DNA of 40,385 nucleotides, taken from the NCBI GenBank assembly GCA_947627925.1, contig CANQXW010000008.1:1-40385 (forward strand), written 5' to 3'. This stretch comes from an uncultured Bacilli bacterium (GTDB taxonomy: Bacteria > Bacillota_I > Bacilli_A > RF39 > UBA660). Position numbers and translations under genes: made by a program. Shown one piece after another: positions 9,506 through 31,870 of the stretch (the stretch's first letter is position 1; every line of letters starts with the position of its first letter). The notes under the pieces are model-generated. The model was not told where the DNA came from and made no database searches. It saw only the letters and a list, made by a program, of their open reading frames with translations.

Positions 9506-10783
9506 ATGAATAATCAAATTGAAAAAATTGTAAAAGAAAATTTAGTTTATGAGGTAAGAGGAAAAAGGGTAATGCTAGATAGTGATCTAGCTAAATTGTA
9601 TGAGTGTAATAATGGCACAAAAGAATTGAACCAATTGGTAAGAAGACACATAGAAAAGTTTTCAAGTGATATGTATTTTCAATTAGAAAAAGAGGAGTAT
9701 TTAGAACTTTTAAGGTCACAAATTGTGACCTTAAAGGTTTCAACAGGGCAACATGTTAAGTACTTGCCATACGTGTTTTCTCGAGAAGGAATCGAGGTTT
9801 TAAATGATTTAATAAGAAATGAAAACAAAGAAAAAATTTACAAAAAAATATTAAATAATTTTCAAGATGCTAAAAATTTTGATTTAGTCGAAATGCGTGC
9901 AAACCCGCATAAAATCGGGGATTTAATCTATGAAGTGAGAGGACAACAAGTGATGTTAGACAGTGATTTAGCCAATCTATATCAAGTCGAAACTAAGAGA
10001 ATAAATGAGGCGGTAAGAAGAAATCCAGATAAGTTTCCCGAGCGATTTACGTTCGTTTTAACAGACGATGAAAGTGAACTTTTTTTGGTCGCAAATTGCG
10101 ACCAAAAAAATAAAAACATGGAAAAACGAGGAGGCAAATATAAAAGTCCTAGAGTATTTACAGAGCAAGGTGTAGCAATGCTTGCCACAGTTTTAAAAAG
10201 TGATGTGGCTGCTAAAGTAAGTATTGCAATAATGGATGCTTTTGTTTTGATGCGAAAATATATTTCTAGTAATTTAATGGAGCAACATTATTTAAAAGAT
10301 ATGGTTATAAAACACGATGGAGAAATAAAACAACTTCAAGAATCATTTAATAAATTTGAAGAGAAAAAAGAAAATGTAAATGAAATATATTTTTATGGAA
10401 GAATATATGATGCTTATTCAAAGATAGTAGATATTTTAAAAGAAGGAGTGGAAGAAGTAATAATTATCGATAGATATGCTGATAAAAGTGTATTAGATAT
10501 GATAAGAGATATAAAGGCTAAAGTAATATTAATAGTCAAAAGAAATGGCTTGTTAAAAGAGATAGATATTGAAAAATATAATAAACAATACCATAACTTA
10601 AAAGTAAAGTATGATAATACTTATCATGACAGATATATAATAATTGATAGAAATAAAGTATACCATTTAGGATCATCTCTAAATCAGGCGGGAAGTCGAA
10701 CATTTAGTATTAATATTTTAGAAGATGAGCTTATTACGCAAAGTTTAATTAATAGTGTTTTTAGTATTAAAGTTAACCCTTAA
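9506..10783 (+). CDS. Double ORF6N-domain protein with PLD-like C-terminus
   Basis: The 425-residue protein has two tandem ORF6N domains (about 10-100 and 137-250), each opening with LVYEVRGKRVMLDSDLA-type sequence and closing with an FTEQGVAML-type segment. ORF6N is a DNA-binding-type domain common in phage antirepressor-like proteins. The C-terminal part (about 295-425) resembles a phospholipase D-like fold with one HxRx4D motif (His374, Arg376, Asp381) followed by GSSLNQAG; Arg replaces the usual Lys, so activity is uncertain. A GGGAGGA ribosome binding site lies ten bases before the ATG. Two palindromes (P3, P4) are embedded in the coding sequence. The gene interrupts the tig-lon neighbourhood and is probably an acquired phage- or defence-type gene. 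Confidence 0.8.
   Translation: MNNQIEKIVKENLVYEVRGKRVMLDSDLAKLYECNNGTKELNQLVRRHIEKFSSDMYFQLEKEEYLELLRSQIVTLKVSTGQHVKYLPYVFSREGIEVLNDLIRNENKEKIYKKILNNFQDAKNFDLVEMRANPHKIGDLIYEVRGQQVMLDSDLANLYQVETKRINEAVRRNPDKFPERFTFVLTDDESELFLVANCDQKNKNMEKRGGKYKSPRVFTEQGVAMLATVLKSDVAAKVSIAIMDAFVLMRKYISSNLMEQHYLKDMVIKHDGEIKQLQESFNKFEEKKENVNEIYFYGRIYDAYSKIVDILKEGVEEVIIIDRYADKSVLDMIRDIKAKVILIVKRNGLLKEIDIEKYNKQYHNLKVKYDNTYHDRYIIIDRNKVYHLGSSLNQAGSRTFSINILEDELITQSLINSVFSIKVNP
9709..9735 (+). repeat. Palindrome P3, inside ORF6N domain 1
   Basis: A perfect 13+1+13 inverted repeat with core GGTCACAAATTGTGACC and flanks TTTAA/TTAAA. It encodes LRSQIVTLK, its centre being the first base of codon 73. A GGTTTCAA half site identical to the P1/P2 arm follows at 9736-9743. 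Confidence 0.9.
10080..10110 (+). repeat. Palindrome P4, inside ORF6N domain 2
   Basis: A perfect 15+1+15 inverted repeat with core GGTCGCAAATTGCGACC and T7/A7 flanks. It encodes LFLVANCDQKN, its centre being the second base of codon 197, so it is read in a different frame from P3 although it lies at the homologous place of the second domain. Confidence 0.9.
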
Positions 10784-28197: not shown

Positions 28198-31100
28198 ATG
28201 GGAGAAGAAGATATTAAAGAAGTAAGCGAACAAGAACTGGAAAGTGCTTTTCCCGATAATGCCTTTAAAGCCTATATGAATGAAATAAACAAATATCCCC
28301 CTTTAAGTGTTGATGAGCAAATTAGTTTAGGAAGAAAAATGATTAATGGAGATGAGACTGCTCGCGAAAAGTTAGTTAAATCTACATTGAAACTAGTGGT
28401 ATGGGTAGCCTTTAAGTATTATCATACCTTAAAACATATGACAATCCTTGATATTATTCAAGAAGGTAATATTGGTCTACTTAAAGCGGTCGAGCGCTAT
28501 AATCCCGAAGAAGGTGCTTTTACCACTTATGCGACTCGGTGGATTAAACAAAGTATTACTAAAGGTATTCATGATAAAAATGATGAGGTTAGAAAACCTG
28601 TTCATTTGCAAGAATCAATAAATAAGTATAATAAACTAATGCAAAGCTTAAAAGCTAGGGGTAAAATAATTAGTGATGAAGAAATATGCGAAATACTTAA
28701 TATAGATTTAAAAAAATTAGCATTGATAAGAGAAACTATGCAAAATACGGCGACTGTATCGATGCACGCTAAGATAGAAGACGATAAAGATGGTACTGAG
28801 CTTTCAGCATTTATTGAAAGTGATAGTACTAAACAATATAACGATATAATAAATCAAATGGTAGACCATGATTTATTTGTTATTTTAAAAAATGTCTTAA
28901 AACCATTACATTACTATATTTTATATCATCGCGTTTTAGCTGGTGAACATTTAACCCTGGAAGTCATAGGAGAAGAATTTCATGTAACAAGAGAGAGAAT
29001 AAGACAAATAGAAGCCAAGACATTAAGAATTGTTAAACCATATTTAGATTGGGATAGTGAATATAATAGGGATTTACTAAACAAAATCAAGATTAGAGAA
29101 GGGGTAAAATATCCTTATATCAAGGAAGAACCGACAAGTCCTAAAGATGTAATAAGATATCTTTTTTTAAAAGATCATTTATCTATTGAAGAAAGAGAAC
29201 TATATAAGCTTAGATTTTTATCTAATTATAAATATTCTTTTAAAACTATTGCCCATATTATGAATATTTCGGAAGATTATCTTACTTCTTTAAATAAATC
29301 TTTACAAAGTAAAATAGCTTATTATTTAAAAGATTTAAAGCATTATAAATTATTTGAAAAAGATATGATGCAAAAATATTCTACGAAAATACTTGCTATC
29401 GATGTTGATAAAATAGATGATACTATTCTTTATAGAAGTTTAGAAGATAAATATGCCAATCTTACTTATGATGAATTCTTAAGAATTTATAATGATTCGG
29501 GTATCTCTTTAGATAATCATGATTTAGAATTAATAAAAAGATTTTATAATGCTCATTTAGATCATAGTTTTGCCATGAAAAATGATGTTGAAAAAGATAT
29601 TAATCTACCAAGATTTGGTTTTGTTAAAAAAGATGGTTTAGTACCATTATCAAAACTTTATAAAACCTATTTACAATCTAAAGATGAATATCGTCCTGAT
29701 CAACAATTGTATTTAGAGTGTTTCTTCTTTAATCGTAAACCTAAAGAATTATTTTATGAAAAGTATCCTGATTCACCACTTTTAGAAAATGATTTTCATT
29801 TAATAGCAAGAGTTGAACGAAGATATTTTCATATCTATTCACTCTTGGAATCATCCTTATCTAAAGAAGAATGGCTAGATGTGAAAAGTACTTATCCTGA
29901 ATTATTCACTCCCTTTAGAATAGAAATATTAGATAGGTATTTTGGCGTTTATGGTAAACCTATACCTATTATTGAATTATATAAAAATTATGATATGGAA
30001 TATAATGAATTTCACGATGCAATTTTTGGAGCGCGTAATTTAGCGATAGCATTAAAAGCGGGAATTAAACATAAAATAAAAATAGACAAAAGTTTATATA
30101 TTCCTTATCTCGAGTCACCTTATTATAAATTTTCCGAGCCTTCAAATACAATTTTAAGAAGATTTATTATCGAAAATAAAGGTTATGATGAGATAGCAAA
30201 GGAAGTTGGTTTAACAAGAACCCAGGTATCTAATGCTATTACTAACGGTATTCGGAAAATGGATAATTATCGTTTTGGCTTAACGGACATTTTTATTGTA
30301 AGTAAAGAAGAAGTTGAAGAAGTAATAAGAATATATAAAAAGAGATTTAGTGATTTAGATATTAAATTTATTATGGAACGTTATATAAATTTAAAAGATG
30401 TAGATGAAATAACTAAAATGTATCACGTTGATAATCGTAGTGTTAATGATGTAATTACGAAGTTTAATAAGTTATATAAAGATCTTAAGATAAAAGATGT
30501 TGAAGTATCAATTGAAGAAATAGAAAGAGAAGTGGCACTTCCTCCGTGTGAATCAGTATATTCAATAAGAGAAAAAATACATGCCTCTTTCTATTATGGG
30601 TTTAAAAATAGTTATAATAAAGAAGGAATTAAACTAACAAGCGAAGAGATTCAACAATTACTTAAGATAACTCCACATGTTTATTATCATCTTCGTAAAC
30701 AGGAAATTAGTAATTTAAAAATGCGTAAATCAGGTCTTTTAAAACCAAGTGATTGTTATATAAGCCGAAGTAAAATGGCCGAATTATTAAGTGATGTTCA
30801 CTTACCAATTAGTGACAAAGAACGAGATATAATATCTTATTTTTATGGACTGAATGGTAGAGAATTTTTAAGTTTTAAAGAGTTAACTAAAATATTTGGG
30901 GATACTGAAGGAAGCATTAGAAGACGTTATCAAAGAGCTATTGTAAATATTTTTAAATATATGAATAATGAAATACCTGGCAAGATAGATTATGAAAATG
31001 ATATTGTACCTATTTTAAAATATTTTGCCACCAAAGATAGAGAAAAAGTAATTGATTTTTATAGAGATAATCTATCTTACGAAGAGATAGCTAAAAAATA

Positions 31101-31836
31101 TTCCTTAACTTTTAGAGCTGTAGTCGGAATAATGACGAGAATTAAAGTAAATGTTTATGATATCTTAAATAATCCTGAAGCTAAAAAGTTTGATTTTGAT
31201 TATTATAAGGAAGCTATAAAAGATGAAAGACTGCCTTTCTATGGAAATTTAAAAGAAGCTACCCAAATCCTAGAATTATCTTTAGGTATGAGAGATGAAG
31301 AACGTTTAACTTTCCCTCAAATAAAAGAAAGACTAAATATTGAGATGAGTGTATCGTCAATGAGTCAAGTAGTAAGCTTTCTCATGCTTGCTGTTTGTAA
31401 ATTGCGAATAGGTATTTATAAAGAAAAAACTTATCCATCTAAAAGGGTAGAAGATTATTATAATTTACATTTTAAAGATATGGGTGCGGTAGAAAAAAAG
31501 GTTTATGAAAAATATTTAAAATACCAAAAAGATCATAAAAAAAGGAATAAAAGAACTCATCGTATTCCTGGTTTGATTTTAAATGATTTAATAAAAGAAG
31601 ATTATCCAGATGCTTTTAGATATGAAAGTGCTACTAGAGAAGAAGTGTTAGAAATACTTAAGAATCCTAATTTAAATTTATCATCAAGGATAAGAAGACA
31701 ATTAATGTTTCATTTTAATATACCTGAAAGAATATTTATGAAAGGTAAAGAATTAAGCCATATCTATAGAATATTTAATCAAATAGAGAGCATAATAAGA
31801 AATAGGGGAGAAGAAAGAACATTAAATATAAAATAA
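28198..31836 (+). CDS. Giant sigma-70-family protein with repeated HTH tail (1212 residues)
   Basis: Residues 20-285 form a complete group 1/2-type sigma factor. Region 1.2 is at about 20-50, region 2 has LDIIQEGNIGLLKAVERYNP (84-103) and TTYATRWIKQSITKGIHD (109-126), region 3 covers about 130-215, and region 4.2 has LEVIGEEFHVTRERIRQIEAK (254-274). Beyond 285 the protein continues for over 900 residues, with at least seven further segments shaped like sigma region 4 helix-turn-helix units: about 346-380, 660-690, 733-763, 813-840, 891-922, 958-988 and 1037-1070. Known sigma-70 factors end near region 4. The tail could read extended DNA or hold several promoter elements, which is inference. 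GGGGGGTGAT suggests the ATG at 28198. It is convergent with lexA. Confidence 0.85.
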   Translation: MGEEDIKEVSEQELESAFPDNAFKAYMNEINKYPPLSVDEQISLGRKMINGDETAREKLVKSTLKLVVWVAFKYYHTLKHMTILDIIQEGNIGLLKAVERYNPEEGAFTTYATRWIKQSITKGIHDKNDEVRKPVHLQESINKYNKLMQSLKARGKIISDEEICEILNIDLKKLALIRETMQNTATVSMHAKIEDDKDGTELSAFIESDSTKQYNDIINQMVDHDLFVILKNVLKPLHYYILYHRVLAGEHLTLEVIGEEFHVTRERIRQIEAKTLRIVKPYLDWDSEYNRDLLNKIKIREGVKYPYIKEEPTSPKDVIRYLFLKDHLSIEERELYKLRFLSNYKYSFKTIAHIMNISEDYLTSLNKSLQSKIAYYLKDLKHYKLFEKDMMQKYSTKILAIDVDKIDDTILYRSLEDKYANLTYDEFLRIYNDSGISLDNHDLELIKRFYNAHLDHSFAMKNDVEKDINLPRFGFVKKDGLVPLSKLYKTYLQSKDEYRPDQQLYLECFFFNRKPKELFYEKYPDSPLLENDFHLIARVERRYFHIYSLLESSLSKEEWLDVKSTYPELFTPFRIEILDRYFGVYGKPIPIIELYKNYDMEYNEFHDAIFGARNLAIALKAGIKHKIKIDKSLYIPYLESPYYKFSEPSNTILRRFIIENKGYDEIAKEVGLTRTQVSNAITNGIRKMDNYRFGLTDIFIVSKEEVEEVIRIYKKRFSDLDIKFIMERYINLKDVDEITKMYHVDNRSVNDVITKFNKLYKDLKIKDVEVSIEEIEREVALPPCESVYSIREKIHASFYYGFKNSYNKEGIKLTSEEIQQLLKITPHVYYHLRKQEISNLKMRKSGLLKPSDCYISRSKMAELLSDVHLPISDKERDIISYFYGLNGREFLSFKELTKIFGDTEGSIRRRYQRAIVNIFKYMNNEIPGKIDYENDIVPILKYFATKDREKVIDFYRDNLSYEEIAKKYSLTFRAVVGIMTRIKVNVYDILNNPEAKKFDFDYYKEAIKDERLPFYGNLKEATQILELSLGMRDEERLTFPQIKERLNIEMSVSSMSQVVSFLMLAVCKLRIGIYKEKTYPSKRVEDYYNLHFKDMGAVEKKVYEKYLKYQKDHKKRNKRTHRIPGLILNDLIKEDYPDAFRYESATREEVLEILKNPNLNLSSRIRRQLMFHFNIPERIFMKGKELSHIYRIFNQIESIIRNRGEERTLNIK

Positions 31837-31870
31837 AAAAGGATATTCATCATCTTTGAATATCCTTTTA
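31837..31870. terminator. Bidirectional terminator between the sigma gene and lexA
   Basis: AAAAGGATATTCA (31837-31849) and TGAATATCCTTTT (31857-31869) form a 13-bp stem with a 7-base loop. T runs on both strands serve the two convergent genes. Confidence 0.9.

Follow-up and report, generated by a model that had tools for sequence, protein, structure and literature searches.

Why would a sigma factor carry more than one region 4? Sigma factors are described with one region 4, which sets -35 specificity, and a gene in the window (the whole stretch of DNA analysed, 40,385 nt) encodes a protein that continues far beyond it. The open reading frame comprises 1212 codons plus a stop, has no frame break and encodes a sigma-70 core (residues 1-285) followed by a tail of 927 residues (Table 1). 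Alternative starts lie at GTG 28189 or ATG 28195, at most three codons upstream, preceded by a GGGGGG run. A first-pass annotation had described a single 1212-residue sigma-70 factor with a tail of about 900 residues, and on this point it was right, as it was in placing the motifs that it quoted: TRERIRQIEAK at residues 264-274, YDEIAKEVGLTRTQVSNAI at 663-681, LSYEEIAKKYSLTFRAVV at 959-976 and LSIEERELYKLRFL at 328-341.

Table 1. Features of the giant sigma factor locus. Percentages against region 4, region 3 or another unit are hhalign probabilities.
Feature	Residues	Position	Strand	Basis
Giant sigma factor gene, 1212 aa	1-1212	28198..31836	+	ORF call, Pfam, full-length homologs in other assemblies
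Sigma-70 core (regions 1.2, 2, 3, 4)	1-285	28198..29052	+	Pfam, alignment with the genome's RpoD
U1, region-4-like	313-379	29134..29334	+	76% vs RpoD region 4; fold
U2, helical	411-475	29428..29622	+	9% vs RpoD region 4; fold
U3, helical	481-547	29638..29838	+	0% vs RpoD region 4; fold
U4, region-4-like	553-623	29854..30066	+	73% vs RpoD region 4; fold
U5, region-4-like, holds YDEIAKEVGLTRTQVSNAI	629-695	30082..30282	+	72% vs RpoD region 4; structural matches to region 4
U6, region-4-like, basic last helix	698-767	30289..30498	+	91% vs RpoD region 4; KorA Z 11.2, YlxM-family 1xsv Z 9.4 (model 413-482)
U7, region-4-like, region-3 likeness, basic last helix	769-847	30502..30738	+	78% vs RpoD region 4; 92% vs class A region 3; charge
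U8, region-4-like, basic last helix	853-925	30754..30972	+	88% vs RpoD region 4; several sigma region 4 Z 7-8
U9, region-4-like, holds LSYEEIAKKYSLTFRAVV	929-993	30982..31176	+	32% vs RpoD region 4; 97% vs U5; sigma-28 region 4 Z 7.7
U10, weakly region-4-like	997-1072	31186..31413	+	41% vs RpoD region 4; 90% vs U4
U11-U12, helical	1079-1212	31432..31833	+	0 and 3% vs RpoD region 4; fold
Terminator-like stem-loop, sigma gene/lexA intergenic		31837..31869	-	palindromic

Is the core that of a sigma factor? The first 285 residues had been called one, and Pfam matches bear this out for regions 1.2 (residues 24-53), 2 (59-125) and 4 (241-277), with region 3 (139-209) just sub-threshold at 24.4 bits, 0.9 below the cut-off. 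In the whole protein, Sigma70_r2 (3.2e-14) and Sigma70_r4 (2.3e-22) both exceed their cut-offs. Alignment with the RpoD of the source genome, an ordinary protein of 368 aa encoded elsewhere, revealed that the core retains LDIIQEGNIGL, the region 2.2 core-binding motif, DGTELSAFI, the 3.2 finger, and the RpoD-like region 4 helix TRERIRQIEAK. In the same comparison, region 2.4 is one residue shorter and the first of its two tryptophans is missing; the -35-reading helix differs between homologs. Judged by this core, the protein is a member of the sigma-70 family. The presence of a separate RpoD and the absence of the gene from relatives set it apart from group 1 (housekeeping) factors, and a region 3 near the cut-off together with an alignment to RpoD throughout sets it apart from ECF (group 4) factors. 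Because the core keeps the sigma motifs and a normal RpoD is encoded elsewhere, we read the protein as an alternative sigma factor, with a core that is plausible and an activity that is putative.

What, then, is the tail made of? Structure prediction and HMM comparison, both proposed with the first-pass annotation, were applied to it. The AlphaFold2 model, built from the 927 residues with eight aligned homologs (mean pLDDT 82.7, pTM 0.58), is a chain of about ten helical units, each 60-75 residues long and most distinct between U4 and U10. Each unit follows the pattern of a helix of about 10 residues, a helix of about 11, a helix of about 8, a turn and a long helix of 18-20, which in the model is the layout of region 4. 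Acidic helical stretches, LSIEERELYKLRFL among them, had been thought to separate the units; this idea has to be given up, since in the model they form helices 1-2 of a region-4-like unit. Taken singly, U5, U8 and U9 matched region 4 of several sigma factors with Z scores of 7-8 over about 60 residues, values that alone are middling and weigh less than the profile tests, and U6 matched KorA (rmsd 1.3) and the YlxM family (Z scores in Table 1). A Foldseek search of the PDB with the whole tail found no match at E <= 0.001, its top rows being sigma factors with poor global superposition, and no sequence relative of the whole tail was found in the PDB.

For the profile tests, each unit was excised from the homolog alignment as a profile and compared by hhalign with region 4 of 25 RpoD proteins. 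Eight of the 12 segments (U1 and U4-U10) scored 32-91%, far above the maxima of two controls, column-shuffled profiles (4.2%, n=180) and segments from seven unrelated protein families (1.0%, n=98). On this basis these eight units are related to region 4, and U2, U3, U11 and U12 can be described as helical. The units also resemble one another, with probabilities of 97 for U5-U9, 96 for U5-U6, 95 for U4-U6 and 90 for U4-U10. Pfam recognises four Sigma70_r4 stretches in the entire 1212-residue protein, its region-4/HTH matches in the tail including residues ~646-690 and ~878-914, and a genome search gave a region-4 match at 30811-30948. Thus, of the earlier claim of at least seven region-4-like segments, the likeness to region 4 stands, while the count gives way to about ten units.

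Relatives of the protein reveal how such a tail may change. In a paralog of 1052 aa (L041:7613-10771), residues 696-704 and 712-853 are missing, in essence U6 and U7. Another paralog, of 672 aa (L041:5552-7570), aligns to residues 21-398 and then, with its own residues 429-574, again to 228-373; by this alignment, region 4 plus U1 is duplicated in it. A third relative, of 978 aa (L062:6498-9434), is a tail protein without a core, with an alignment from residue 227 to 1196, and shorter relatives (431, 449 and 480 aa) align to about residues 412-476 only. A DUF3800 gene directly precedes the core-less tail protein (L062:5651-9434). Judging from the two-unit loss, the repeat of region 4 with U1 and the core-less tail, units are gained and lost as modules. 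Repeated duplication of region 4 had been suggested from the outset. Serial multiplication is supported by the profiles, the predicted fold, the two-unit deletion and the region 4 plus U1 repeat; copying from the protein's own region 4 and recruitment of YlxM/KorA-like HTH domains are indistinguishable at the present divergence.

A search of related genomes, also proposed at the outset, found the full-length architecture in several separate assemblies at 27-46% identity. Eight full-length homologs share 28-46% of core residues and 27-41% of tail residues with the window protein, and conservation tends to peak in U5, U8 and U9. Among 117 sampled genomes of the family, five besides the source genome carry long tail homologs, some of them broken by stops, and a first search had found them in two of 24 other genomes of the genus, one of which (G006) carries three copies. 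Rabbit-gut ('Lapin') assemblies under the title 'uncultured Bacilli bacterium' contain homologs as well. In a class-level sample of 395 genomes, long matches were confined to this family; matches in other families were ORFs of 107-124 aa only, probably YlxM-like. A phylum-level sample of 392 genomes gave no match at 1e-10 except the source genome itself. Among the sampled genomes, full tails are patchy and restricted to one family of uncultured Bacilli with small genomes, with the proviso that these searches covered samples or patterns and rare members elsewhere may escape them.

The genomic setting indicates how the gene came to lie where it does. In the nearest sampled relative (G009), a gap of 32 bp separates the MTTase gene from lexA and the sigma gene is absent, and the products of the two genes are 88.8% and 93.2% identical to those of the window; the two genes are likewise adjacent in three further genomes (G503, G011 and G008). 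Since this site is empty between the same two neighbours, the giant gene is best described, from the comparison of loci, as an accessory insertion. The final MTTase residues differ at the insertion junction, at which no target-site duplication was identified. Other copies of this type (class A) lie at other chromosomal sites, and once two copies flank a DDE transposase. Class A homologs in two genomes, G126 and G092 (L067, L070, L072, L075), are stop-broken or split into several ORFs, which suggests gene turnover; patchy presence together with broken copies makes the gene look dispensable. A phage or plasmid origin was rejected because no tail match was found in phage, plasmid or viral collections, viral contigs included.

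No neighbour conserved across loci suggested itself as an anti-sigma factor or target: lexA, uvrA, addAB, fmt and ileS vary by locus. Class A-type sigma genes adjoin uvrA in two genomes (L041 and L044), and the window copy adjoins lexA, a setting in which a connection to DNA repair is conceivable. Homologous proteins adjoin class A sigma genes in two genomes (L044:4537-5391 and L063:10752-11468) and represent a possible partner. Elsewhere in the window, 9506-10783 encodes a protein with two ORF6N domains (phage antirepressor-like) that matches the candidate defence family PDC-S05. No upstream motif was shared among the homologs, upstream of which only TATAAT-like elements were seen by eye, and promoter-like matches around the giant gene did not exceed those in shuffles; no target promoter was found.

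How might such a protein work? Region 4 of known holoenzymes is seated on the -35 element with its C-terminal end towards upstream DNA, and for this reason the first tail residue, 286, would lie immediately upstream of -35. A model of the potential mechanism is as follows. Residues 1-285 would bind core RNA polymerase, read the promoter and open it. With region 4 at -35, the roughly ten helical units, most of them akin to region 4, would follow over the DNA just upstream; those whose last helix is basic (U5-U8, perhaps U1) would touch this DNA, and the remaining units would space and stiffen the array. The giant protein would then be a sigma factor with its own activator, sending polymerase to promoters whose long upstream region matches the array. 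We give nearly even credence to this proposal, in which an accessory alternative sigma factor has an upstream DNA-binding array as part of its own chain. Its architecture is well supported (intact ORF, sigma core motifs, conserved modular helical-repeat tail, eight region-4-related units, accessory insertion); the working holoenzyme, the binding of DNA by the tail and the upstream placement of the tail are what we infer.

Several observations favour this sigma-activator proposal. The core keeps its 2.2, 3.2 and 4 motifs alongside a separate RpoD, the tail model repeats a four-helix unit, and the units match region 4 above two kinds of control and structurally resemble region 4, YlxM and the DNA-bound repressor KorA. 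Mean charges of the last helix are +1.9 in U5, +3.2 in U6, +4.4 in U7 and +3.3 in U8, compared with +4.2 in the core's own region 4, which suggests that a subset of the units may contact DNA. Furthermore, identity in the tail is near that in the core over nine homologs, and units are lost and gained as modules. It is the position of the tail beyond region 4, together with the basic last helices of U5-U8, that leads us to favour an upstream DNA-reading array. Against it, the assignment to region 4 covers eight of 12 segments, the last helices of U3, U4 and U9 are weakly charged (+0.6 to +1.1), and the tail as a whole carries a net charge of just +16 across 927 residues. Core region 2.4 is altered and the -35 helix variable, neither a target promoter nor a conserved upstream motif was found, and patchy presence with broken copies marks the gene as dispensable. 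The earlier idea that the protein reads long or multipartite promoters fits the tail position and the basic last helices, yet some units look structural.

In the main rival explanation, the tail might be a scaffold for protein interaction or regulation, built of region-4-like folds most of which have lost DNA binding, and might control the core by autoinhibition, oligomerisation or partner binding, like some ECF extensions. Several units without basic last helices and the four segments described simply as helical (U2, U3, U11, U12) would fit such a tail, and C-terminal extensions do regulate sigma factors in some ECF groups (reviewed in PMC8999054). Basic last helices are nonetheless kept in U5-U8, conservation tends to be highest in U5, U8 and U9, and no partner recurs beside class A genes except the one homologous neighbour pair in two loci. 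We regard a scaffold as a serious possibility, one to which we would incline less readily than to the sigma-activator proposal.

A different kind of explanation is a selfish or defence-related gene, mobile and accessory, that diverts RNA polymerase or titrates it, for instance through many region-4-like units competing for the beta-flap. Single-gene insertion, empty sites in relatives and scattered sites speak for this, as do the two copies around a transposase, the broken copies and the core-less tail protein; moreover, the nearest named large sigma factor, MzaA, is a member of a defence system. However, the likeness to MzaA is limited to the sigma core, no defence operon lies alongside, no phage or plasmid copies were found, and long-term conservation of the entire tail suggests a more specific role. 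Given the mobile-like distribution, a role in defence or polymerase competition is possible; as a full account of the gene we hold it to be improbable. Finally, misassembly, which the first-pass annotation had itself named as a danger, can be dismissed: the source genome is a draft metagenome assembly (56 contigs, 88% complete), but a sigma gene falsely fused to an unrelated downstream gene would hardly recur as a whole architecture in several other assemblies and genera, with a tail conserved nearly like the core.

A second group of giant sigma factors (class B) exists in the same family, with about 200 residues ahead of the core, variable tails and lengths of ~500 to 1850 aa, often in tandem. 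Within class B tails, three repeats closely resemble one another (about 99%), and two of the three reach 93 and 87% against RpoD region 4; class A units U1 and U4-U10 score 47-96 against class B region 4. The two classes share a sigma core followed by region-4-like repeats; class B differs in its pre-core residues and in a shorter and different tail, probably a separate expansion. Because class B tails match class A tail units only partly, region-4-like arrays probably arose more than once. The AlphaFold model of a class B relative was poor (pLDDT 64.8), and no conclusion here draws on it. In the source genome, the stretch L039:1496-6679 (on G000:C4) holds the gene of a second giant sigma factor, a class B protein of 1059 aa, and behind it in tandem two sigma-like genes of ~300 aa, with a DUF3800 gene close by. 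A genome of the same genus contains a sigma ORF of 1850 aa (L046:3752-9304) whose tail has region-4 and LuxR-type HTH matches. Two genes adjoining class B sigma genes encode proteins without regions 2-3: one has a region-4 match near its start (L048:1342-2649) and the other, without a Pfam match, looks HTH-like by eye (L058:5917-6909).

What would such proteins mean for transcription? A conserved chain of about ten helical units, mostly region-4-like, following a core that looks functional would mean that multiplying a domain is a way to extend promoter recognition, and the giant sigma factor would offer a natural sigma-activator fusion for testing. Reduced genomes are usually expected to have few, simple sigma factors; contrary to this expectation, a lineage with genomes of ~1.1 Mb retains sigma ORFs as long as 1850 residues. 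More broadly, and more tentatively than either of the two leading readings of the window protein, these genes may represent a sigma family of small-genome gut Bacilli with a multi-site DNA reader, in which modular region-4-derived arrays, gaining and losing units, steer polymerase to long composite promoters and sigma and activator are merged in a spreading accessory protein.

Does the protein correspond to any known system? No sigma factor with several region-4 units is described in the open-access literature searched; a match to 'two sigma4 domains' was rejected because it compares two different proteins. MzaA, of the MZA anti-phage system (NF041931, PDLC02203), is likewise a large sigma-70 protein, and among NCBIfam profiles the sigma part of MzaA matches the core best, but the MzaA profile has its extra length before the sigma part and the giant protein after it. 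The protein scores 177.4 bits against this profile, in the sigma part only, with a cut-off of 800 bits, and PADLOC agrees. Membership of an MZA defence system was rejected because only the sigma core matches, the tail being without an MzaA match, and no MZA genes (mzaBCDE) were found among ten window proteins, mostly near neighbours. ECF factors with C-terminal extensions (e.g. ECF41, ECF56) share the fusion of a sigma factor to a C-terminal regulatory part; they lack region 3, and the extensions described for them are SnoaL-type or other domains and not region-4 arrays. YlxM (UPF0122) and KorA (TrfB) HTH proteins share the fold of single tail units, U6 above all, whereas they are stand-alone proteins of ~100 residues with neither sigma core nor array. 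By these comparisons the giant protein is not a group 1 factor, not an ECF factor and not MzaA. With RpoD-like sigma-70 factors (groups 1-3) it shares regions 1.2, 2, 3 and 4 in order and the 2.2, 3.2 and TRERIRQ motifs, and it differs from them in a region 2.4 that is one residue shorter and in the 927 residues that it adds past region 4, their usual end point.
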